DNA of 38,809 nt from Eubacteriales bacterium (GTDB taxonomy: Bacteria > Bacillota > Clostridia > Lachnospirales > Lachnospiraceae), in assembly GCA_030524745.1 (NCBI GenBank), contig JAUNGC010000026.1:17841-56649 (forward strand), in the 5' to 3' direction. Shown here in pieces: positions 4,782 to 38,809 of this stretch. Position 1 is the first letter of the stretch. Each line of letters opens with the position of its first letter. The translations under genes and the position numbers were made by a program. Under the pieces are notes generated by a model. That model was not told the origin of the DNA. It was given only the letters and a program-made list of their open reading frames with translations, and did no database searches.

Positions 4782-6440
4782 TCAGCCCTTTCTGGCATCC
4801 AGAAGCTGCTGTTTATATGCGACGACAGAATCATAATCATAGCTGTCTCTCGCCTGAATGAATTCCTCAAAAATCCGGTCGAATTCCTCATCCGATCCCG
4901 CTGTAATCAGTTCCGGCAGCACCTCTTCCCATTTCTGGTTTACTCTGGTTGCCGCAATGGCCGCATCGGAATCTCCGGTAGGTTCCAGATTATTATAAAT
5001 ACCTCCGGCAATATATGCATGACTGTTTGCCCAATCATACATCTGTTTGATATATTCCGGCTTTTCAGGACGCCACTGATCCACAATCACGCTGTTTCTG
5101 AGCATCCAGTATGTATCGCCCAATCCATATGTGTTGGAAAATGTCTCCAGATCGCTGTTCATCATTTCCACAAATTCCGGTTTCATAGTGGGCACGCCAT
5201 CCACATAATCATAGGTTTCGCCTTCTACGCCGAGGAAAACATCCCTTTGACCTTCTTCACTGCACATATAGGTTAAAAAGGCGATTGCCCGGTCCGGATT
5301 CTCGCAGTTCTTGCTGATAAAGCAGCTCATCCAGCCATCCAGAGAACCGGGGAAAATGAGCGGCGCGTCGCCATTTTTCCCGGAAGGTCCGTCTATCGCA
5401 ATATAATAGCTATCCGGATTTTCGCTCTGCGCAAGAATCGTATTCGCCTCCTGCATGCCGCTCCATTCACGTAGCATGCAGAAATACTGTCCGTTGTTGG
5501 CCTTTTCTGTCACCTGATCGTCAGAATCCACCAGATAATCGATGCCGATCAGCCCCTCTTCATAAGCCTGACGCAGCGTCTTTAACCATTCCAGATAGTC
5601 CGGATCGGTGGTACGGTCATAAATTTCTCCGTCCTTCTCATAGGGCACCGCCAGGAAATTTTGCAGGAACGTGGAGAGACCGTAGCCGGAACCGCCCTGC
5701 GCATAGAAAGGCGTAATGTTCACTCCCTTATAAGTGCTGTAATTTTCCTTTAACTGCCGCAGCGCTTCCAGAAATCCTTCCGGGGTTGTCATATCGGGGC
5801 TTCCCATTTCTTCATAAAGATCCTTTCTTACAAGGAAGGTCTGTGTAGCCGCCGTCATGCCGGTCTGCGCCATCTGCTCTTCGCCATAGGCATCATTGGG
5901 AACGCAATACAAATTGCCGTCTTCTTTCGTATGCCATTTGATGATACTTCCGTCCACCACCTGATAAAAGTAAGGATCATATTCATCAGCCAGTTCGTTG
6001 AGACTATACACATAGCCGCCTTCATACAGCTTATTGTAGGAGGTTTCCCAGCTTCCAAGCGAAATCAGATCCGGCAGATCCCCGCTGATCATCATCAGGG
6101 AAAGTTCTTCATTCACATCGCCTGTAGGAGTCACAATTTCCACATTCACGCCGGTTTTTTCCGTAATGTTTTCAGACACCAGATTGTTTCCCCAGGTGTA
6201 AGGATACCAGGAAGCCCCCACAAACCAGGTCAGATCCACCGGAGACGTATCCTTTTTCCAGGCCGGTCCGTCTGCCTCTGCCGCTGCGCTCTCCTCCGCC
6301 GTTTCTTCCTCCTGCACGGCCGCCGCGCCGTCCTGTTCCTGCACCGTTTCCGCACTCTGCCCGTTTCCGCCGCATCCTGCCAGAGAAGCAAGCATTCCCG
6401 CGCAAAGCAGCACAGCCAAAATCTTTTTGTACTTTTTCAT
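4782..6440 (-). CDS. Extracellular solute-binding lipoprotein of a carbohydrate ABC transporter
   Basis: A 552-residue substrate receptor of the LplA/family-1 type. The start is the ATG giving MKKYKKILAVLL, with AGGAGG upstream; the longer frame from 6479 runs through that ribosome site. The signal peptide ends in a lipobox LAGC with lipidated C23, followed by an acidic Ala/Glu-rich tether. The body has features of large oligosaccharide-binding proteins (for example DLTWFVGASWYPYTWGNNL and the C-terminal EFDRIFEEFIQARDSYDYDS). It follows the two permease genes, 35 bases after the second. It should capture an oligosaccharide outside the cell for import. No ATPase is encoded nearby, so a shared MsmX-type ATPase elsewhere is likely. 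Confidence 0.94.
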   Translation of the reverse strand: MKKYKKILAVLLCAGMLASLAGCGGNGQSAETVQEQDGAAAVQEEETAEESAAAEADGPAWKKDTSPVDLTWFVGASWYPYTWGNNLVSENITEKTGVNVEIVTPTGDVNEELSLMMISGDLPDLISLGSWETSYNKLYEGGYVYSLNELADEYDPYFYQVVDGSIIKWHTKEDGNLYCVPNDAYGEEQMAQTGMTAATQTFLVRKDLYEEMGSPDMTTPEGFLEALRQLKENYSTYKGVNITPFYAQGGSGYGLSTFLQNFLAVPYEKDGEIYDRTTDPDYLEWLKTLRQAYEEGLIGIDYLVDSDDQVTEKANNGQYFCMLREWSGMQEANTILAQSENPDSYYIAIDGPSGKNGDAPLIFPGSLDGWMSCFISKNCENPDRAIAFLTYMCSEEGQRDVFLGVEGETYDYVDGVPTMKPEFVEMMNSDLETFSNTYGLGDTYWMLRNSVIVDQWRPEKPEYIKQMYDWANSHAYIAGGIYNNLEPTGDSDAAIAATRVNQKWEEVLPELITAGSDEEFDRIFEEFIQARDSYDYDSVVAYKQQLLDARKG

Positions 6441-17362: not shown

Positions 17363-18076
17363 TTAAACGTCAAAGCAAAATACATTCGGCACAACATCGG
17401 CGCCAAATGTTTTCACTGCCATCCGGTACATCGCCTTTGCGTGGATTCTGTCATGCCAGATAAAACGCCTCAGCACTTTTCTTAACGACCATTCTTCATC
17501 ATAACTCCCATGAAAAACAGTATTTTTCAGAAACTCTGGCTGGCTTTCCAATAATGCAAACCCTCGTTTCCTGCATTCCGCAATATTTCCTTCGTTATCA
17601 ACAGAAACACCGATTTCTCCAAAATAATAGTCATTGACATTCTTCGTATGTTCATACATTTCAAATGCGGTACGGGGAATCTGCCCATAAAAAGTCGCTC
17701 TGGCCGGCAGACAGCTTTTCTCTTTATCCGGTATTGCCTGATACAGCGTCAGGAAATCCTGTGCCGATTTCATCACAAGCGTTTTCATTTCTTCATATTC
17801 GGATATGCTTAACGGCTTTTTTTCTTCCTCAAAGAGAACATCTGAATCAGCATCGGAAATGGTGAGTTCGGACTCTTTTTCCTGAACAATTTCAATCTCC
17901 AAAGAATCCGGCACAGGATCGCCCTTCCATTTCAGGTAGGATCTGATTTCCGCAGGCATTTTCAAAACCGCCGCGTCTCTGGTCTCGCCTCTTGTAAAAG
18001 CGCCGATAAAATTGTCCGCATACAAGATACTGTCATTGCCGTTATGTTCCCATACGCACCGTATTTTCATAAGCAC
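17363..18076 (-). CDS. HicB-like N domain fused to DinB-like domain
   Basis: A 237-residue protein starting at GTG (18076), with GGGAG five bases upstream, or at an ATG six bases later. Residues 1-70 resemble a HicB-type antitoxin fold (WEHNGNDSILYADNFIGAFTRG, DAAVLKMPAEIRSYLKW). After an acidic linker, residues 95-237 form a helical bundle with DinB-like metal-ligand His residues (FEMYEHTKNVNDYYFGEI and RRFIWHDRIHAKAMYRMA). DinB/YfiT proteins are thiol-dependent metal enzymes or damage-related proteins. No HicA toxin is next to it, so a TA role is unlikely. It heads a three-gene operon with its own promoter at 18135-18163. Confidence 0.75.
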   Translation of the reverse strand: MLMKIRCVWEHNGNDSILYADNFIGAFTRGETRDAAVLKMPAEIRSYLKWKGDPVPDSLEIEIVQEKESELTISDADSDVLFEEEKKPLSISEYEEMKTLVMKSAQDFLTLYQAIPDKEKSCLPARATFYGQIPRTAFEMYEHTKNVNDYYFGEIGVSVDNEGNIAECRKRGFALLESQPEFLKNTVFHGSYDEEWSLRKVLRRFIWHDRIHAKAMYRMAVKTFGADVVPNVFCFDV

Positions 18077-29790: not shown

Positions 29791-30780
29791 TTATTTGCTC
29801 CCCTGATGATAATATCTGGAAAGATTCTCTACGACGTCCTCCGGATCGTACATGACATCGGAAAGTCCGCCTTCTTTTATACAGCGCTTTCCGTTCGCCC
29901 GTTCTATAACCATATCACAGGTATAAGGATCGGCAATAACCGCCTGAATCTCCCGGTTGATATCGGTCACACACTGTGCCGGACTGTCCACATATCCATG
30001 CCCTGCCATGACATAATCAAATTCCTTCACTCTTTCCGCCAGTTTTTCCATCTGCTTTGCGCAGTAGGAAATCCCCATGCATTCCGGATGCAGAACCCCC
30101 GGCTTTGCGCTGTTTAATCCCAGCGCCAGCCCTTTTCTCCGGGATTCAAAAACAGCGTCTCCCGAATAGAGAATCCGGGATTTTTTATCCAGAAAGCAGC
30201 TCAGTCCCGGCGCATGCCCGCCCACATGAATCAGTTCGAGATCATAATCGTCCCCCAGATTGATGATGCTGTGATTTTCCAGATGCAGCGCGCGGTAAGG
30301 GCGGTAGGGGATCACATCCTCGTCTCTGTAATAATGGCGGTGCTGCGCTTCTCCCACATGGTTGAACTTCTTCCACCAGCCTTCATAATCGATTGCCTGC
30401 ATTTCCAGCATTTCCGCGCAGTATTTATGGCAATAAATTTCCTCCCACTGAGGATTTCCGCCGACATGATCGCCATGGGAATGGGTAACGGCGCAGATCA
30501 CGGGTTTTCCCGTCAGGGATTCTCCCAGTCCCTTCAAATCGCCGATTCCGTAACCGTTATCAATAAATATCGCTTTCTGCGGCCCTTCTATCAGATACAG
30601 CCAGTTATCTGCCACCGCATGCGTACAGGGCGCAAACATCGCCCAGACATTCTCCCGGATCCGAAAAACCTCCACATACCGGTCGATCGGATACACCGTT
30701 CCGCCGTACTGACTCCGCAGTTTCTGCAAATACGGCTCCACATCATCATGAACCGGTTTCACCGACGTCAGTTTCTCCAT
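29791..30780 (-). CDS. MBL-fold metallo-hydrolase (second paralogue)
   Basis: A 329-residue protein with GGGGAG before the ATG. The metallo-beta-lactamase metal motif is H100-S-H102-G-D104-H105 (THSHGDHVGG). Further ligands are the His of HVGGHAPG, the Asp of YSGDAVF and the His of MAGHGYVD. All ligands for two metals are present. It is paralogous to the first gene of the operon (36281-37288): both share PYVEV/RYVEV, GxGDLKGL and GGHAPG. Likely a hydrolase of esters, lactones or thioesters; no signal peptide. Last gene of the seven-gene operon, after a 103-base gap with a hairpin. Confidence 0.92.
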   Translation of the reverse strand: MEKLTSVKPVHDDVEPYLQKLRSQYGGTVYPIDRYVEVFRIRENVWAMFAPCTHAVADNWLYLIEGPQKAIFIDNGYGIGDLKGLGESLTGKPVICAVTHSHGDHVGGNPQWEEIYCHKYCAEMLEMQAIDYEGWWKKFNHVGEAQHRHYYRDEDVIPYRPYRALHLENHSIINLGDDYDLELIHVGGHAPGLSCFLDKKSRILYSGDAVFESRRKGLALGLNSAKPGVLHPECMGISYCAKQMEKLAERVKEFDYVMAGHGYVDSPAQCVTDINREIQAVIADPYTCDMVIERANGKRCIKEGGLSDVMYDPEDVVENLSRYYHQGSK

Positions 30781-30811
30781 AAAAATCTCCCCTTTCCCTA
30801 TATATGATGGA

Positions 30812-30832
30812 ACCCCCAGCGCGCCGGGGGGA
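30812..30832 (-). terminator. GC-rich hairpin before the last operon gene
   Basis: CCCCC (30813-30817) pairs with GGGGG (30826-30830) around AGCGCGCC. No U-run follows in the minus sense. It may attenuate or process the mRNA between the NTF2-like gene and the last MBL gene. Confidence 0.4.
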
Positions 30833-30883
30833 ACTGCATTTTCAGCGCCCTGAGAGTATCATCCTGTTTTTGTCGGGGCTAAC

Positions 30884-31540
30884 TTATTCCAGCCCGAACC
30901 ACTCCGAACTTTCCCGGTAAAGCTTTTCTATCGTTTCCGGCTTATCGCTCCCCGCCCAGCGATCCGCGTTTTTCAGCCCGCCGATGTTGCTGCGGCGGTA
31001 AGCCATATTCCAGTTAATTGCCCGAAACCGCATGAGTTCCTGTCTCGTTACGGTCAGTGTGCTGTCCATAAAAACGGGATCCATCCGGTCTTTTTCGTAG
31101 ATTCCTTCAAAATAGAGAATCCCCCATTTTCCGTCCCGCTTTTCCAGCCTGTAGTGCATTCTGCACCAGCACTGGGAATCCATCCATTCTCCTTTGATCT
31201 CCGTGCGGAAGTTCAGAAAGCATAAAATCTCTGCAATCGCCTTATTGCCGTTGAGCCACACAATCGTATCGTTTACGCGATGACCGTGAGACTCTGCCGG
31301 ACTGTCCGGCGAAATATTCTCCTTCGGCGTAATCGTGGGATTTCCCAGATATTCGCTGACCGGGCCTTCAAACCAGGTGGTGAACAGCCGTCCGTCCTCA
31401 TGCCACAGTTTTTTCTGCTGCCGCTTATATCCGTAATCCGTGCAATACCGGTCATATTCCACAATCTCCCGGATTCTTGCCTTCTCCGTCATTTCCTCCG
31501 CGGATAAATTCCCCATCGGAGCTTCGTAAAAATATTTCAT
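30884..31540 (-). CDS. NTF2/SnoaL-like protein, putative dehydratase or isomerase
   Basis: A 218-residue protein whose ATG overlaps the MATE stop (ATGA). The N terminus has a helix EMTEKARIREIVEYDRYCTDY, then a cone-shaped alpha/beta fold typical of NTF2-like enzymes: LFTTWFEGPVSEYLGN, HGHRVNDTIVWLNGNKAIAE, RMHYRLEKRDGKWGILYFEGI. The fold includes SnoaL-type cyclases, ketosteroid isomerases and dehydratases, with a pocket for a small hydrophobic molecule. His and Asp/Tyr residues in HGHRVND and YDRYCTDY are candidate catalytic groups. It is larger than BaiE-type dehydratases. In this operon it most likely acts on the same substrate as the reductases. Confidence 0.82.
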   Translation of the reverse strand: MKYFYEAPMGNLSAEEMTEKARIREIVEYDRYCTDYGYKRQQKKLWHEDGRLFTTWFEGPVSEYLGNPTITPKENISPDSPAESHGHRVNDTIVWLNGNKAIAEILCFLNFRTEIKGEWMDSQCWCRMHYRLEKRDGKWGILYFEGIYEKDRMDPVFMDSTLTVTRQELMRFRAINWNMAYRRSNIGGLKNADRWAGSDKPETIEKLYRESSEWFGLE

Positions 31541-32943
31541 TGGTTTTTTCCCGCTTTCTTTTTCTCATCACTGTCCGTCAAAAGTTTTCTCGTCTTCCAC
31601 TTTCCGCTCAGGAAATAGGCGATCACCACAACCCCTGTCAGCGTCCTGGAAAACGCGGTGCCCCAGAAATAGCTTTCAACGCCCTGATGAAAAACATGCA
31701 GGAATAATAAGCTGAATCCGATTCTGCTGATTACGCCGTCCACAATTCCCAGCAGAAATCCCAGCGATACAAATCCGCTTCCCGTGACCATCGACTGAAA
31801 CGCTCCGGTCGTTCCGTTTACAAAAATTGTCATAACCATAATGCTCAGATAGGTGACGCCGAATTCGATTACCTCCTGATCCGTCGTGAACAGCCTGTAG
31901 AGCTGTCTGGGAATGAGCAGGAACATGAGCGATGAAATCGCCGCTACAACCATGCAGAAGCCCCACGTACACAGGATCGCCTTTTTGGCTCTCTCCGGTT
32001 TCTTTGCGCCAAGGTTTTGTCCCACCATGGAAGCGGCGGCGGATTCCACACCCTGCATAAACACTTCCATGAACTTCTGAATCTTGTTTCCGACGCTGTT
32101 GGTCGCCGCGGCAACCAGACCATACTCGTTGACATTCGCATTGACCCAAAGCATGGAAAAGCGTACCAGAGTGCTGCGCACCATCTGCGGAACGGCAAGA
32201 AGAATGATTTTTTTCGCCGCTTCTTTGTCTATTTTAAAATAGGAGAGTTTCAATTCAAATCCCATCTCTTCCTTATGCCGGTACATGAAAATAAACGCCG
32301 CCAAAAAAGAACCGAACTGGGAAAATACCGTCGCAATCGCCGTTCCGGCCGCTTCCAGGCGGAAAATCGCAACCAGAACGATATCAAATACAATATTGAC
32401 AACCGCCGCCACAATGATAAAATACATCGGCTTTTTGGATTCGCCCATTCCCCGCAAAACCCCGCAGACCCCGTTATAGCCGAAAATAAAAGGCATTCCG
32501 AGCACGGTAATAACCATATAGGCGCGCGCCTGCGACCAGGCCTCCTCAGGACAATTCAGAAGCCCCAGTATCTGATTGCAGAAAACCAGCGTCAGCACGG
32601 CAAAACAGGCGGATGCGATAAACATAATCGTAAGCAGCGTGCCGATTGTCCGCTTTGCCTTTTCATGTTCTCCCACTCCCGTCAACTGCGCAATATATAC
32701 CTGCCCGGACATGGCGAAGGCCGTCGCCAGAGGCGTCATGAAATCAGAAATTTCTCCGCCGGTAGATACGCCTACCGTTCCCGTGCTTCCCACAAACTGT
32801 CCGACCACCATGAGGTCAACCAGAGAATACAACTGCTGGATCAGATTGGTCAGAATAATCGGCACCGCAAACACCATCAGCGTTTGAAATACCGGTCCCG
32901 CCGTCAGATCCGCTCCTACTTTTTTCTTCGCCGTCGCTTCCAT
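31537..32943 (-). CDS. MATE family efflux transporter
   Basis: A 468-residue membrane protein with 12 helices. The start is the ATG giving MEATAKKKVGADLT, with GGAGG six bases upstream; the longer frame from 32985 overlaps the previous gene and includes the ribosome site. Typical MATE motifs are VFAVPIILTNLIQQLYSLVD with VVGQFVGS in the first half, and VPQMVRSTLVRFSML plus AAASMVGQNLGAKKPERAKK in the second. It exports organic molecules in exchange for sodium or protons. It starts 16 bases after the ceramidase-like gene and overlaps the NTF2-like gene by four bases. It should export the product or toxic substrate of the operon enzymes. Confidence 0.95.
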   Translation of the reverse strand: MEATAKKKVGADLTAGPVFQTLMVFAVPIILTNLIQQLYSLVDLMVVGQFVGSTGTVGVSTGGEISDFMTPLATAFAMSGQVYIAQLTGVGEHEKAKRTIGTLLTIMFIASACFAVLTLVFCNQILGLLNCPEEAWSQARAYMVITVLGMPFIFGYNGVCGVLRGMGESKKPMYFIIVAAVVNIVFDIVLVAIFRLEAAGTAIATVFSQFGSFLAAFIFMYRHKEEMGFELKLSYFKIDKEAAKKIILLAVPQMVRSTLVRFSMLWVNANVNEYGLVAAATNSVGNKIQKFMEVFMQGVESAAASMVGQNLGAKKPERAKKAILCTWGFCMVVAAISSLMFLLIPRQLYRLFTTDQEVIEFGVTYLSIMVMTIFVNGTTGAFQSMVTGSGFVSLGFLLGIVDGVISRIGFSLLFLHVFHQGVESYFWGTAFSRTLTGVVVIAYFLSGKWKTRKLLTDSDEKKKAGKNQ

Positions 32944-32959
32944 GAAGTTCCCTCCTCCC

Positions 32960-34336
32960 TCATTCGTATTCCAGAATTTCTTCAAACAGCGCCTTTTCGC
33001 CGTTCACAATCAATTCATCTGCGCTTCCCGGGATAACGCCTCCGTAGGCCATCGGCAGAAGAACATCCTTCGAGGTTTTATCAAATATGTAATTGCACTT
33101 TTCCCCGTAATGATGTGTGACAATAACCGTGTTCCGATAAGGAGAAGCCGCTTTCATATCTCTGCCGATTTCCGCAAAAAGTTCGGCGTTCGCAAACAAT
33201 AGCGCAATATGTCCGAGCGTTAAAAGATGTAAATGCAGGTGTCTGGGATCTCCCGGGACCATTGCGGGAACTTTTGCCGGCGCAGGAATCCGTCCTGAGG
33301 GAACCGCCGCATAATCCCGCTCTCCCTGACCGCCGTTGCGCACGAAAGAAAAGTCTCTGGGCGGCCATTCGTCTACGCACTTATTGGCGGGAAGGTCTAT
33401 CTCCTTTACGGAATGAGCAATCGGCATTCTATCGGAATACCGGGTGATCCGGTCGATCCCCCTGCAGCAGTCTGCGCCATGCTGTCTTCCCATATACTCC
33501 ATCTGCATATAGCCGGTTCCGTCCGGATATTGCATCTGCGTAGTCCAGCCGTCCGGATACTCGTACTGAAGCCCATGACTCAACAGCGGATTCTGGTTTC
33601 CGGCCGCGCCGGACGTCCACATCGCCACCGCGCCGTTTCCGTAATGTTCTTCCACAAACCGGCAGGCAATTCCGGTAAAATTTCCGGACGTCTTGGCTTT
33701 ATGATTCGCATCCTTCAGCATATAAATATTGGTGGCGTGCGTGGCATGATTGAGAAATGCAGCAATCAGTCTGCCCTGCTCATCTACAAACTTGACGACG
33801 GACAGCGTTTTATCGCTGTATCCGTCCATATTCCTGCCTTCCACCCAATAGCCGCCGAAGGTATACAAATTCCGGTTCACATTGATATTGCTGGCGATCT
33901 CCCCGTAGCCGTATCCGGCGGGACGCATGGAACCGACCGCTTCCCGGCAGGCACGGATTCCCGCCTCGTATACGATGTTTTCGTATTTTTCAATAAAATC
34001 CGCCAATTCTTTCGTATCGACCTGATTCTTCCGGTATCGGGGCGCGGAATGGTTATGCGTTCCCATAATAAAGATCATATCTTCGGGAACTTTTGTCGCC
34101 TCCGCAATGTCCCCCGGATAATGGGGGAACTCCGGCGCGCCGGCCAGTTCAAAGGTCAGAAACAGCAGTTTTTTCTTTCCGTTATCAACCGCAATCGCAC
34201 GGCAGTTCATATCGTCATAGGGCGCTTCCTGGCTCATCGGTTCCAGTCCAAAATCCGTGATCCGATTAGGGATCGGATACATATCCGGCGTCGGATTGAT
34301 ACATACCTTCGCCGCCCCCACTTTCAATTTACGCAT
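32960..34336 (-). CDS. Ceramidase-family-like metalloprotein, nucleophile motif absent
   Basis: A 458-residue protein overlapping the dehydrogenase gene by eight bases (ATGCGTAA). The N terminus KVGAAKVCINPTP and the zinc-site motifs THNHSAP (H94, H96) and NHATHATN place it with the neutral/alkaline non-lysosomal ceramidase N-domain family. The GDVSPN box that carries the nucleophilic Ser in true ceramidases reads GAAGNQNP here. The C-terminal beta domain of true ceramidases is also missing, and there is no signal peptide. It is probably a cytoplasmic metal-dependent hydrolase with another substrate. Confidence 0.85.
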   Translation of the reverse strand: MRKLKVGAAKVCINPTPDMYPIPNRITDFGLEPMSQEAPYDDMNCRAIAVDNGKKKLLFLTFELAGAPEFPHYPGDIAEATKVPEDMIFIMGTHNHSAPRYRKNQVDTKELADFIEKYENIVYEAGIRACREAVGSMRPAGYGYGEIASNINVNRNLYTFGGYWVEGRNMDGYSDKTLSVVKFVDEQGRLIAAFLNHATHATNIYMLKDANHKAKTSGNFTGIACRFVEEHYGNGAVAMWTSGAAGNQNPLLSHGLQYEYPDGWTTQMQYPDGTGYMQMEYMGRQHGADCCRGIDRITRYSDRMPIAHSVKEIDLPANKCVDEWPPRDFSFVRNGGQGERDYAAVPSGRIPAPAKVPAMVPGDPRHLHLHLLTLGHIALLFANAELFAEIGRDMKAASPYRNTVIVTHHYGEKCNYIFDKTSKDVLLPMAYGGVIPGSADELIVNGEKALFEEILEYE

Positions 34337-35300
34337 CTTTCTGTCCCCTTTCCGGATTATTTAGCGCAAACGGCGGACGTTCTCCGTTCATGGCGCAAAG
34401 AATGTTCCTGACGCACTGCTCCTGCGACCGCAGGCGGGCGTCCGGCGTATTCGCCGCATTATGGGGCGTCGCAATTACATTGTCCATCAACAGCAGCGGG
34501 TTAGCCTCTCTGACAGGTTCCGTCTCAAAAACATCCAGCGCGGCGCCCGCAATCACATGATTGGAAAGCGCATCGATTAAATCCGCTTCATTCACCACAA
34601 AACCTCTGGTCGTATTAATCAGGATCGCTTCCCGCTTCATCATAGCAAGCTTCGACGCGTCAATCATATTTCTGACGGACTCGCCTCCCGCCACATGCAG
34701 CGTCACAAAATCAGCCTCCGCAAGCGCGTCCTCCAGTGTGGCTGCGAGTGTGATGTATGCAGGCGCCTTTCGTGAATCCGCGTAAGGGTCGTATCCCACA
34801 ATTTTCATATCGAACGCATGGGCAAGGGAAGCCACTCTGCGTCCGATATTTCCCAGACCGATAACGCTCAGCGTCTTTCCGTTTAATTCAATGGAGGAAT
34901 AGCTTTTTGCCCTGTCCCAGTCCGGCTGCTGTTTGTGCAGCGCGCAGCTGACCGGATACAGCTTCTTTGCCGCCGCAAGCATCAACGCAATTGTATGCTC
35001 CGCTACCGCGATATAATTTGTCAGCGCCGTATTGGAAACCCAGACATTATGTCTGGTACAGGCCGGAATATCAATTTTGTCCACGCCCACGCCGAATTTG
35101 GAAACGATCTGCAGCCTGGGCGCTTTTTGCAGAACCTCTTCCGTCACGTAACATTTCCCCGGTATCAGGGCGTCGCAGCGTGCGAGCTTCTCTTCTTCTA
35201 TGGTTTTCCCGTCTCCCTGCAGAAATTCATAGCCCTGCTCTTCCAAAAGCTGCCGAATCCGTTCGCCTTCATCAATTACGCTATATACACATCTTTTCAT
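34329..35300 (-). CDS. D-2-hydroxyacid dehydrogenase (NAD-dependent)
   Basis: A 323-residue enzyme. The start is the ATG giving MKRCVYSVIDEG, with GGAG nine bases upstream; an ATG five codons earlier has only a weak site. The Rossmann motif is GLGNIG (148-153), with D171 favouring NAD over NADP. Catalytic residues are R232 (NTTRGFVV), E261 (VFETEP) and H280 (TPHNAAN), complete for the 2-ketoacid reductase family close to phosphoglycerate dehydrogenase. The substrate is probably a 2-hydroxy or 2-keto acid of the operon pathway. There is no ACT domain, so serine synthesis is less likely. It starts 21 bases after the aldo-keto reductase stop. Confidence 0.93.
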   Translation of the reverse strand: MKRCVYSVIDEGERIRQLLEEQGYEFLQGDGKTIEEEKLARCDALIPGKCYVTEEVLQKAPRLQIVSKFGVGVDKIDIPACTRHNVWVSNTALTNYIAVAEHTIALMLAAAKKLYPVSCALHKQQPDWDRAKSYSSIELNGKTLSVIGLGNIGRRVASLAHAFDMKIVGYDPYADSRKAPAYITLAATLEDALAEADFVTLHVAGGESVRNMIDASKLAMMKREAILINTTRGFVVNEADLIDALSNHVIAGAALDVFETEPVREANPLLLMDNVIATPHNAANTPDARLRSQEQCVRNILCAMNGERPPFALNNPERGQKDA

Positions 35301-35321
35301 GATTCGTTTCTCCATTTCCGC

Positions 35322-36269
35322 TCAGACTGCGAATAACCGATCCGCTTCCTCTGCGGTCATTTCAAAATCCGCCGCCGTCAGCGTTTCATACAGCATTTCC
35401 TTCGTGGTAGCCCCGAAAACCGGAAAACAGGGAAGTTTATTATTTATCAGATAGGCCAGCACCGGCACCGATACCGGAACATGCCGCTCTTGAGACAGCT
35501 TTTTTACCTTTTCAAGACGTTTCAGATTATCGGGGCTCAGATAGCATTTCGACAGCATCGCGTTTAAGGACGCCGCTCCGCCGCCTGCCATTTTGGAGAA
35601 AAACCCCTGAGCCTGCGGACTGAACGCAAAGACAGGCATTTTTTGTTCATAATACCAGTCATAGGACCTCTGATCCATCACCACCGTGGTAAACTGACGG
35701 AAATATTCCTCTTTTGTAGCCGCCAGGTTCCACTGAATCTGACTCATACAAAAACCCTGCTGTCCGCTTTTCTGGGCGTATGTATTTGCCGCGGCGATCC
35801 GGTCCACATGCCAGTTCGAGCACCCCACCGCGCCCACTTTTCCGCTCTGAATCAAAACATTGATATCGTCAATCACCGCCTCTGCCGGGTAGCTTTCATC
35901 GTCCTTATGCAGCCAGTAAATATCGATATGATCCGTACCGAGAGCCTTAAGACTGCTCTCAAGGTCTTCCTGCATATCCCTTCCGGTCAGCCGCGATTTT
36001 CCGTCCGGCGCGGGATGTCCGCATTTTGTGGAGATCAGAATATGATTCCGGTTCTCTCTTTTTTTCATATAACGGCCGATCAGTTCTTCGGCCTGCCCTC
36101 CGCCGTATGCCCTTGCGGTATCGATACAGTTTCCGCCCGCGTCCAGATAAATATCAAATAATTCAAACAGTTCCCGTTCCGAAAGCATCTGCATCTTCAC
36201 CGCCGAGCCGATGACCAGACCCGAAATTTCCAAAGTCCCCTGCAGCGTTTCAATTTGTTTATATTTCAT
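35322..36269 (-). CDS. Aldo-keto reductase
   Basis: A 315-residue NAD(P)H-dependent reductase. The start is the ATG giving MKYKQIETLQ, with GAGAGGAA upstream; the longer frame from 36284 only overlaps the preceding stop. The AKR tetrad is complete: D50 and Y55 (CIDTARAYGGG), K82 (ISTKCG) and H121 (YWLHKDD). The C-terminal coenzyme loop is FPVFGATTKEML. It would interconvert a carbonyl and an alcohol in the cytoplasm. It begins 11 bases after the first MBL gene ends, so transcription with the rest of the operon is near certain. Confidence 0.93.
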   Translation of the reverse strand: MKYKQIETLQGTLEISGLVIGSAVKMQMLSERELFELFDIYLDAGGNCIDTARAYGGGQAEELIGRYMKKRENRNHILISTKCGHPAPDGKSRLTGRDMQEDLESSLKALGTDHIDIYWLHKDDESYPAEAVIDDINVLIQSGKVGAVGCSNWHVDRIAAANTYAQKSGQQGFCMSQIQWNLAATKEEYFRQFTTVVMDQRSYDWYYEQKMPVFAFSPQAQGFFSKMAGGGAASLNAMLSKCYLSPDNLKRLEKVKKLSQERHVPVSVPVLAYLINNKLPCFPVFGATTKEMLYETLTAADFEMTAEEADRLFAV

Positions 36270-36280
36270 GGCGCTTCCTC

Positions 36281-37288
36281 TCATTTCTTCGGCTGATATA
36301 CGCCCTCCATTTTATACGCAAGCACGCTGAATCCCCGGATATACTTGAAAAACCGTTCGCTTGGCTCGCCGCCCTTGGGGCTTACGCTGACCGCCCTGTA
36401 ATCATATCGATCGGGATCTTTTAAAATCTCGTCGCAGGCCTTTAACTCTTCGATCAAAACGCCGCTCTCCACATTGACCATAAAGTGACTGGGGAAGACA
36501 TAGTCGATTTCATCCATGCGGTCGACCACCCTCGCCAGATTGTTGCGGAAGGTTTCAATATTCATATACTGCGCGTTATGAACGCCGGGACGCGGCCCGT
36601 TTCCCACGCCGGAAACATCGCTGCACAGATCGTCTCCCGGGAAAAATATGCGGTTTTGTTTATCCAGAAAACCGGAATTCCCCGGCGCATGTCCGCCCAG
36701 CCAGAACAATTCCACTTCATAGCCGTCCCCCAGATCAAACACATAGCCGTCCGGAACGCCGACGATTTCATATTCCCTGTAAACCGGAAGATCCTCTTTT
36801 TCAAATTCCAGCCAGATATTGTTGCCGTTTTCATCAAAGAGATAATCAAACATATGGGCATTCTGCTCCCGCAGATTCGGCACTTCGTATTCCTGGCAGT
36901 AAACCTTTTCAAAACGGCAGTTGCCGTAAGAATGATCCACGTGTCCGTGGGTATTGACTACCACCAGCTCTTTTCCGCCGGTGATTTCATCGCACAGCCC
37001 CTTTAAATCGCCCAGACCGAACGCCGTATCGATCAGCATCGCCTTTCGGGGCCCCACGATCAAAAACATCCAGACGTCGCCGGCGCCGTCGCAGTTCTGG
37101 GTGAAAAGACCATACAGGTTATCGCGGAACTGATATACTTCCACATAAGGATCGATCTCATATATTTTCCGGGTCTTATTATTTTCCCGCAGTTCCTTCA
37201 TATACGCCCAACTGATGTAATTCTGAGGCGCTCCCCATTTTATTCTCTTAGCCTTCAATTCATTTTTAATCGGAAAATTCTGTTTCAT
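36281..37288 (-). CDS. MBL-fold metallo-hydrolase (first paralogue)
   Basis: A 335-residue protein and first gene of the operon. The start is the ATG giving MKQNFPIKNELKA, with GGGAGG nine bases upstream; the longer frame adds MSIYGREQK and contains the ribosome site. The metal motif is H114-G-H116-V-D118-H119 (NTHGHVDHSYGN). Further ligands are the His of LGGHAPGNSG, the Asp of FPGDDLC and the His of FPSHFMV. Clearly homologous to the last gene of the operon, but with a 15-residue longer N terminus and a different active-site surround. No signal peptide. The substrate is presumably related to that of its paralogue. Confidence 0.92.
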   Translation of the reverse strand: MKQNFPIKNELKAKRIKWGAPQNYISWAYMKELRENNKTRKIYEIDPYVEVYQFRDNLYGLFTQNCDGAGDVWMFLIVGPRKAMLIDTAFGLGDLKGLCDEITGGKELVVVNTHGHVDHSYGNCRFEKVYCQEYEVPNLREQNAHMFDYLFDENGNNIWLEFEKEDLPVYREYEIVGVPDGYVFDLGDGYEVELFWLGGHAPGNSGFLDKQNRIFFPGDDLCSDVSGVGNGPRPGVHNAQYMNIETFRNNLARVVDRMDEIDYVFPSHFMVNVESGVLIEELKACDEILKDPDRYDYRAVSVSPKGGEPSERFFKYIRGFSVLAYKMEGVYQPKK

Positions 37289-37335
37289 CTTCTGTTCCCT
37301 CCCGTAAATCGACATGCTTTCGTCTGTTTAAAAAT

Positions 37336-37344
37336 ATTATAGCA
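37336..37344 (-). promoter_or_regulatory. Extended -10 promoter of the seven-gene operon
   Basis: On the minus strand TGC-TATAAT reads 37344 to 37336, about 50 bases before the start at 37288. No good -35 box is seen 17 bases upstream, so an activator or the extended -10 alone would be needed. Confidence 0.6.
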
Positions 37345-37407
37345 AGCGCCCTGAACCGGCGATATGCGGCAATTTTAAGAATATGTGCAAAAAAAAAAGA
37401 AAGTATT

Positions 37408-37541: not shown

Positions 37542-37588
37542 AATTGCGTACATTTTTTGTTACTTGTATGCTGAAAGTTGGTGTCTGC

Positions 37589-38194
37589 TTGAATAAAACG
37601 GAAATTTTAAAAAGAGTAATTGAAGATAACGGCGGCATTGCAAAAACTTCAGATTTTGTCGCTAACGGGATAAATAAATACGAAGTTGCCGCTTTCTGTA
37701 AAGAAGGATTTATCGAAAGGATTCGCAGGGGATTTTATCAACTCCCACAAAGTAATAGCACGACGGAGGAACAGTTAATACACGAGTTGCTTCCACGGGG
37801 AATTATTTGTGTGGAGTCCGCTTTGTTTCACTACGGATACAGCGATTTTTCTCCTCGTGAATGGTCAATTGCTGTGCCGAGAACAGCATCCCGTGCCGTA
37901 AAGAACATTGAAGAATTCCCGCTGAAGGCTTATTATATTCAAAAGGAATTTTTAGATCTTGGTAAGTCCACAAGCAATTTTAACGGTGTAATATTGCCTG
38001 TGTATGACCGTGAGCGAACAATATGCGATTGCTTTAAGTACCGCACAAAACTTGACAACGAAATTTTTAATAAGGCTGTCAATGCTTATGCTGCTGATGA
38101 AAAAAAGAACCTTGCAAATTTGTCTAAGTACGCAAAGGAAATGAAACTTTATACAAAGGTTATGAATGTAATGGAGGTATTGCTTAATGGCTGA
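37589..38194 (+). CDS. abiEi: AbiEi-type antitoxin (type IV TA system)
   Basis: A 201-residue protein. The start is taken as the TTG giving MNKTEILKRVIEDNGG, with GGTG five bases upstream. An in-frame ATG at 37568 is possible, and the longest frame begins at TTG 37544. An N-terminal winged helix (ILKRVIEDNGGIAKTSDF, YEVAAFCKEGFIERIRRGFY) would bind DNA. The following domain has GIICVESALFHYGYSDFSP, VYDRERTICDCFKYRTKLD and NLSKYAKEMKLYTKVMNVMEV, typical of AbiEi antitoxins. It neutralises the toxin indirectly and represses the operon. The stop overlaps the toxin start by eight bases. GC is lower than in the rest of the window, consistent with transfer. Confidence 0.9.
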   Translation: MNKTEILKRVIEDNGGIAKTSDFVANGINKYEVAAFCKEGFIERIRRGFYQLPQSNSTTEEQLIHELLPRGIICVESALFHYGYSDFSPREWSIAVPRTASRAVKNIEEFPLKAYYIQKEFLDLGKSTSNFNGVILPVYDRERTICDCFKYRTKLDNEIFNKAVNAYAADEKKNLANLSKYAKEMKLYTKVMNVMEVLLNG

Positions 38195-38771
38195 TATGGC
38201 TGCGTCCGTGCTTGCACGGCTCAAAAACAAGGCAAAAGAAAGTGGAAGAAGCTATCAGCTTTGCCTGCAGCTTTTCTGTCAGGAGGAGTTTTTGCGCCGT
38301 CTGGAAAAGTCAAAGTATGCTGAGAACCTCGTGCTAAAAGGCGGCTTGTTTCTCTATTCACTTACCGACTTTGACAGCCGGGTAACGGTTGATGTAGATT
38401 TTTTGCTTCGGCAAATACCCAATACACCGGAACAGTTAAAGGGTATCCTCGCAGAAATTATCACGGTTCAGACTGGCAATGATTTTGTGACCTTCGAGAT
38501 AAAAGATATTGCGCCTATTGCCGTTACGAAGAAATATGCCGGTATAGGTGCTTCAATCGTTGCTCGTATTAAAAACACACGCACGCCGTTTAGTATTGAT
38601 TTCGGCGTTGGAGATGTCATTGTGCCGAATCAGGAAAAAAGAAAAATTCCCACTCAGCTTGATGGTTTTATTTCCCCGACTGTTAATACTTATTCCATTG
38701 AAACGACTGTTGCTGAGAAAATTGATGCAATCCTCAGCCTGATGGAATTTTCCAGCGTATATGGTAAATAA
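38187..38771 (+). pseudogene. abiEii: AbiEii-type nucleotidyltransferase toxin, C-terminally truncated
   Basis: The frame gives 194 residues, while AbiEii toxins are usually near 290-310. GGAGG precedes the ATG inside the antitoxin gene. Catalytic nucleotidyltransferase motifs are intact: KGG at 51-53 and R65-x-T67-x-D69-x-D71 (SRVTVDVDFLL). The middle is also normal (FSIDFGVGDVI, TYSIETTVAEKIDAIL). After FSS at about residue 190 the expected family segment around RMKDYYDI is missing and the frame stops at TAA. The cause could be an insertion, deletion or assembly break just before the window end. It is probably inactive, or else a shortened variant. Confidence 0.8.
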
Positions 38772-38809
38772 CCAGTCCTCCGGACAAAATAATGCCAGCC
38801 CAAAGGCTG

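Follow-up and report, generated by a model that had tools for sequence, protein, structure and literature searches.

A rare, modular locus probably split by a contig break in a Lachnospiraceae genome as a candidate route for import, conversion and export of a plant-type compound

Seven tightly packed minus-strand genes at positions 29791-37288 of a 38,809-nucleotide stretch of the draft genome of a Lachnospiraceae bacterium (Eubacteriales bacterium, assembly GCA_030524745.1, contig JAUNGC010000026.1; the whole stretch is referred to as the window and its contig as C46) raise the question of whether their products act together on one compound, and how such a compound would be acquired. The original prediction, made from the window alone, described a single unit in which hydrolases and oxidoreductases work with an efflux pump, found no importer near it and gave detoxification as its leading reading. 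The best reading of the present analysis, to which a probability of about 0.5 is given, is that these genes belong to a route that takes up a plant-type ester or glycoside, converts it by hydrolysis, redox and lyase steps, and exports the product, the locus being classed as a catabolic uptake locus in kind. In all probability they form only the second half of a modular locus that is larger and rare, the uptake and sensing half of which lies on another contig, C15, of the same genome.

The seven open reading frames (ORFs) are intact, with zero internal stops, and, read from first to last gene, are separated by -4, +6, -8, +16, -4 and +103 bases, which confirms that they are joined as predicted. 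The first gene encodes a metallo-beta-lactamase (MBL)-fold hydrolase, MBL1 (36281-37288; Pfam Lactamase_B, HxHxDH motif), of 335 residues with the start that matches related locus L011, or 344 with an alternative start at 37315. It is followed by an aldo-keto reductase, AKR (35322-36284; Pfam Aldo_ket_red, motifs DTARAYG, STKCG and WLHK), a D-2-hydroxyacid dehydrogenase, HADH (34329-35315; Pfam 2-Hacid_dh), a ceramidase-like protein of 458 residues, CER (32960-34336; an HxH motif and another conserved His), a MATE exporter (31537-32943, alternative start 32985; Pfam MatE), a SnoaL/NTF2-fold protein (30884-31540) and, beyond the 103-base gap, a second MBL-fold hydrolase, MBL2 (29791-30780; Pfam Lactamase_B), 34% identical to MBL1. 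The motifs sought were found in MBL1, MBL2, CER, AKR and HADH alike. Pfam thus upheld the family labels of both MBLs, AKR, HADH and MATE, but CER (29.4 bits for Ceramidase_alk PF04734, gathering score 32.1) and the SnoaL protein (21.8 bits for SnoaL_4, gathering score 24) fell below the Pfam gathering scores.

The apparent lack of an importer is explained by the position of the operon near a contig break. The right end of the window is the end of C46, 53 bases into a repeated, probably mobile element (38757-38809), the same sequence of which terminates the retrieved stretch of a further contig, C6. Upstream of MBL1 there is a minus-strand leader region (37289-37404) containing a terminator T-run and alignable with L011, where homology restarts at position 5991 and the terminator hairpin is complete (-13.5 kcal/mol, z -3.3). 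An AbiEi-like antitoxin gene on the plus strand (37544-38194; Pfam and comparison with L011) then sits between both halves of the locus, followed by the 5' part of an AbiEii gene (38187-38771, plus strand) that is disrupted by the element and covers profile positions 2-151 of 238. Contig C15 terminates in a complementing AbiEii match to profile positions 155-230, carries at its end (17467-17474 of its retrieved stretch, L139) the same 8-bp flank found at 38749-38756 of the window, likely the target duplication of the element, and ends in element sequence that, reversed, agrees with that of the window at 18 of 24 positions. Further, L011, from a Lachnospiraceae metagenome-assembled genome (MAG), matches C15 at 70% identity along 5.9 kb and, about 45 bases further on, the MBL1 region of the window at 77%. 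Because of the split AbiEii gene, the common flank, the similar element ends and this collinearity, it is very probable that C15 and C46 adjoin each other in the genome, with AbiE very probably inserted between the two halves near the terminator.

On C15 there is a complete and contiguous Opp/Dpp-type importer gene set (L139 3830-9356), consisting by Pfam of a family-5 substrate-binding protein (SBP; SBP_bac_5), two permeases (BPD_transp_1, one with OppC_N) and two ATPases (ABC_tran with oligo_HPY), which is predicted on these families to be an Opp-type importer. The statement that there is no importer therefore holds only for the part of the window near the operon, and the argument built on it fails, as the importer-bearing contig very probably adjoins the right end of the window; a contig that breaks off at a mobile element can, as here, make an importer seem to be missing. 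Detoxification of a compound entering the cell unaided would fit the MATE exporter, hydrolases and reductases, which are customary detoxification parts, but with an Opp-type importer upstream in the source genome and in several relatives it is unlikely, and less likely than import-coupled conversion.

Association of the importer with these enzymes was also seen across 15 genomes carrying MBL1 or CER matches, counting neighbours within 12 kb and excluding the window's own genes. Some of the seeds being tandem copies within one locus, an OppB homologue was near 10 of 14 MBL1 homologues (approximately 0.6 expected from OppB density) and near 8 of 12 CER homologues (approximately 0.5 expected). 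The MATE exporter gave a comparable result. Its best 80 matches, again without the window's own and with the lower ones weak (at most 33%), formed two groups separated by an empty interval from 36 to 50% identity; 8 of the 11 with at least 50% identity had MBL1 or CER within 12 kb, as opposed to 3 of the 69 others (Fisher p 8e-7, a value that is only indicative because the genomes were chosen for these genes and because tandem copies and related loci are non-independent). One 50% piece of a broken copy (G198:C69) is included in this count, two further pieces of it (64-65%) having fallen outside the best 80. The window MATE is a subtype tied to MBL1/CER clusters.

Homologues of the SnoaL protein were then followed as markers of related loci. 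Within the family, homologues of at least 41% identity were present in 4 of 299 genomes including the source genome, two further matches among the six found being weak, and among 391 genomes of the class searched at 1e-15 the sole other matches were two of 27-30%; MBL1 at 1e-50 and CER at 1e-30 were found in 8 and 10 of the 299 family genomes, respectively. A contig scan with the SnoaL protein, from which the best 80 loci were kept, placed six clostridial loci (L011-L016) on top of 74 non-clostridial ones (L017-L090). MBL1, CER, MATE, SnoaL and AKR occur together in two of the six, in the orders MBL1-CER-MATE-SnoaL-AKR (L011) and MBL1-AKR-CER-MATE-SnoaL (L012), and because of this co-occurrence the grouping is considered to be beyond chance, although the L012 MATE is only 34% identical; an explanation by unrelated neighbours was rejected on the same grounds. 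L014 and L015 have CER and AKR homologues of 26-33%. AKR genes were also within 5 kb of distant SnoaL homologues in three of four annotated neighbourhoods. For HADH and MBL2, no close counterpart was found in L011 or L012, the best homologues being of 35-36% identity in L015 and L136 for HADH and a 30% MBL in L014 for MBL2. Opp genes adjoin SnoaL in L013 (from the cultured relative Diplocloster agilis), L014, L015, L098 and L099; the retrieved stretch of L098 has four Opp genes, CER, two carboxylesterases and SnoaL, while L132, from another genus, combines a MATE of 55% identity, an epimerase, an MBL1 of 53%, five Opp genes, two CER genes, an ATP-binding cassette (ABC) pair, a kinase and a response regulator fragment. 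The recurring families and the cluster-tied MATE subtype support the predicted functional unit, whereas co-occurrence of all seven families was only partly borne out, membership varying among the six clostridial loci so that the seven do not form a fixed set.

Three features of the related loci were observed in passing. A PFL-like glycyl radical enzyme with an apparent activating enzyme stands beside SnoaL and CER in a MAG of Family XIII (L015:11447-14609), a tandem SnoaL-like gene pair occurs in a different neighbourhood in Clostridiales bacterium 1_7_47_FAA (L016:9365-10615), and a flavocytochrome c-like reductase, possibly an electron-acceptor reductase, is close to an Opp-MBL1 cluster (L134:3686-5704).

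An indication of the chemistry comes from the predicted structure of the SnoaL-like protein. Its AlphaFold model (pLDDT 91) had as top Foldseek matches 7jmv, 7jmr, 7kd9 and 6w54, structures of PPP2 and AGDC1, at template modelling (TM) scores of 0.79-0.85 and 17-23% identity in the structure alignments, and an hmmsearch of the PDB with a profile of 32 homologues returned PPP2 at 2.7e-37 and AGDC1 at 2e-35. BaiE, scytalone dehydratase, LinA and LdpA were far behind at TM scores of about 0.45-0.51, and an LdpA-type deformylase was rejected at query TM scores of 0.47-0.50. Processing of bile acids or steroids with a BaiE-like dehydratase could be entertained given the BaiE structures among these matches, the presence of AKR, and the Asp-His dyad that BaiE also has, according to PMC7862292; however, BaiE is not the closest fold (query TM 0.46-0.51 versus 0.79-0.85 for AGDC1/PPP2), the importer is of Opp type and the Pfam matches of the seven genes and the C15 genes tested included neither a CoA ligase nor a CoA transferase family, making this explanation quite improbable. 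The reading of the SnoaL protein as simply a dehydratase, a function that the original prediction gave as possible, is not supported, as the nearest fold is that of the gallate decarboxylase family, with an altered pocket.

AGDC1 and PPP2 are fungal cofactor-independent gallate/protocatechuate decarboxylases, and the active site of AGDC1, as PMC7862292 describes it, comprises the dyad D40-H86, the clamp W35 and W61, the anchors R39 and Q192 and the K+-binding E88, with W35, R39 and Q192 mutants being inactive. In an alignment of 32 sequences, eight clostridial and 24 from the 74 non-clostridial loci, equivalents of the dyad, W61 and Y150 were present throughout (32/32). The window protein is of similar length and shares the fold and the dyad (D35 and H87) with AGDC1/PPP2, and also keeps the W61, T60 and Y150 equivalents, but differs at four positions: W35 is replaced by D30, R39 by T34, Q192 by R183 and E88 by V89, so that the full clamp, the anchors and the K+ site are not present. 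These changes recur across the eight clostridial sequences, in which the W35 position is D or E in all eight, Q192 is R in seven, R39 is replaced by T, C or M in seven and kept in the other, and the E88 position is V or I in all eight; T60 is kept in six. Because the dyad is retained but the carboxylate clamp is altered, the protein looks, from this model and alignment, like a dyad lyase of the AGDC1 fold, and no assignment to the gallate decarboxylases is made.

This active site bears directly on the compound class. An operon specific to phenolic esters, such as tannin-, chlorogenate- or gallate-like compounds, from which the hydrolases would free the acid, the lyase would decarboxylate it and MATE would export the phenol, is possible although doubtful. 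It draws on the gallate/protocatechuate decarboxylases as nearest folds (profile E-value of 2e-35 to AGDC1), on the recurrence of carboxylesterases across related loci, and on the 24 aligned non-clostridial homologues, all of which keep the eight AGDC1 residues W35, R39, D40, T60, W61, H86, Y150 and Q192. In two of four annotated neighbourhoods of distant homologues, those in Shinella and Sinorhizobium, there was a maleylacetate reductase together with an intradiol dioxygenase; the remaining two were without that pair, the one in Listeria having a gene named ring-cleaving dioxygenase approximately 4 kb off. Against such specificity, the residues replaced in the clostridial proteins (W35, R39 and Q192) are those at which AGDC1 mutants are inactive (PMC7862292), and the 24 non-clostridial homologues differ from AGDC1 at Y146 (R; V in PPP2) and E88 (L or Q). 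Phenolic esters are the leading compound class, weakened by the altered pocket.

The non-clostridial homologues (L017-L090, 24 aligned) are, separately from this, candidate bacterial phenolic-acid decarboxylases. Genes that we take to be intradiol-dioxygenase-like and maleylacetate-reductase-like were present in 7 and 4 of the 74 loci, respectively. The alphaproteobacterial contexts were too varied, and ORF picks in the GC-rich DNA too noisy, for a pathway to be named.

As to the hydrolases, B1 metallo-beta-lactamases have a Cys as Zn2 ligand, in place of which Asp228 was invariant in an alignment of ten sequences, unlike the B1 type; the predicted MBL1 model (pLDDT 77.7) had generic MBL matches only. 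CER resembles neutral ceramidase, the Zn ligands of which are two His, a Glu and a Tyr, in the HxH region, the second His and the N-terminal half. In alignments with the neutral ceramidase structures 2zws and 4wgk, both His regions of CER align, the Glu region does so only at 3 bits and the Tyr lies outside the alignment. Degradation of sphingolipids or ceramide, as the PF04734 similarity might suggest, is very improbable given that CER scores below the Pfam gathering score, is 458 rather than 646 residues in length and has a good match confined to its N-terminal half, the C-terminal half being hardly alignable. CER plasmid contexts and the homologues of CER and MBL1 pointed to no pathway. Another explanation would be a cluster that makes and releases a small secondary metabolite. 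MATE exporters beside modifying enzymes are common in secondary-metabolite clusters, and the window MATE has weak NCBIfam similarity to solanimycin and guanitoxin exporters; with an importer present, however, and neither a synthase nor a carrier-protein family among the Pfam matches of the seven genes and the C15 genes tested, this explanation is improbable.

Control of the locus may reside on C15, in a module (L139:12377-17117) encoding a response regulator with an AraC-type domain, a histidine kinase, an RbsA-like ATPase and an RbsC-like permease (BPD_transp_2), with no binding protein. In addition, C15 encodes an aldose epimerase (Aldose_epim), a small protein and a CER-like protein 28-30% identical to window CER. 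A kinase stands between a response regulator and the RbsA-like ATPase and permease in five loci (L139, L011, L012, L013 and L132), and in none of the five has it a strongly hydrophobic segment (top 19-residue mean 0.8-1.5); the Walker A lysine is missing from the ATPase in four of these loci and retained in L132. A less similar ABC pair (31% and 24%) occurs in L140. In a survey of the 299 family genomes with five first-look candidates scored per genome, the ATPase was found at 1e-35 in three, including the source genome, and always inside such a cluster. YesMN-type two-component systems control ABC uptake loci, and the C15 module likewise has an AraC-type response regulator and a PF06580 kinase beside ABC genes, but differs in that the kinase is without a membrane segment and beside an SBP-less pair whose ATPase is mostly without the Walker A lysine. 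This pair is possibly a pseudo-importer serving as a sensor, and substrate sensing by the kinase/ABC module is inferred.

Taken in the presumed order of steps, the Opp-type importer encoded on C15 would take up a plant-type ester or glycoside, and MBL1, MBL2 and CER, judging by their families, would open ester, lactone or amide bonds. AKR and HADH may then carry out NAD(P)H-dependent redox steps on the released carbonyl or 2-hydroxyacid part, while the Asp35-His87 dyad could perform an acid-base lyase step, a decarboxylation or dehydration, on a polyhydroxylated ring; a galM-like epimerase would act on the freed sugar, and the MATE exporter, a subtype that accompanies these clusters, would expel the product. 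The response regulator and the kinase encoded beside the SBP-less ABC pair would provide control. Of this scheme, the analysis directly shows the gene content, its conservation, the predicted fold and the dyad, whereas the class of compound, the sequence of steps and the lyase reaction are proposals.

Several observations weigh against import-coupled conversion of a plant-type compound. The locus is rare, as seen in the SnoaL counts above and for MBL1, found at 1e-60 in one of 13 genomes of the genus. Its composition is also loose: CER and AKR homologues are present in four of the six clostridial SnoaL loci, MBL1 of at least 80% identity in two and MATE of at least 50% in one; L013 has, besides SnoaL, only short MBLs and none of CER, AKR, MBL1 (at least 80%) or MATE (at least 50%), and L016 only a 34% MATE and the second SnoaL copy. 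No Opp genes were seen in the retrieved stretches of L011, L012 and L016, and 3 of the 11 MATEs of at least 50% identity were not near MBL1 or CER matches. The C15 binding protein resembles generic family-5 proteins, the CER-like protein of C15 matched no Pfam family at 0.001, the substitutions at the clamp, anchors and K+ site of the SnoaL protein count here as well, and the draft genome has a contamination of 4.98%.

The claim of the original prediction that no described pathway has this set of genes stands in so far as a narrow-term search of a partial literature collection returned no description of it. A known parallel in logic is the Lactobacillus tannin operon, which consists of a tannase, a UbiD-type gallate decarboxylase and a permease and has in common with the present locus the sequence of de-esterification, lyase step and transport. 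Unlike that operon, this locus is composed of other families, with an ABC importer and MATE, and neither a tannase nor a UbiD family was among the Pfam matches of the seven genes and the C15 genes tested. A broader proposal, offered tentatively, is that such modular anaerobic loci make up a family, so far undescribed, that is devoted to a single class of complex plant compounds and would combine Opp import, rotating ester, lactone or amide hydrolases, an AGDC1-fold lyase in which the Trp/Arg clamp has been swapped for Asp/Arg for a new reaction, and a dedicated MATE subtype, sensing in some loci going through a degenerate RbsA/RbsC-like pair turned into a membrane receptor for a soluble histidine kinase. 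If the reading of the locus given here is right, it would add a relative with a changed pocket to a decarboxylase family that has biotechnological uses, and what may be a new design of sensor, as well as a route, open to testing, for the possible transformation of plant polyphenols or similar esters in gut-type Clostridia.

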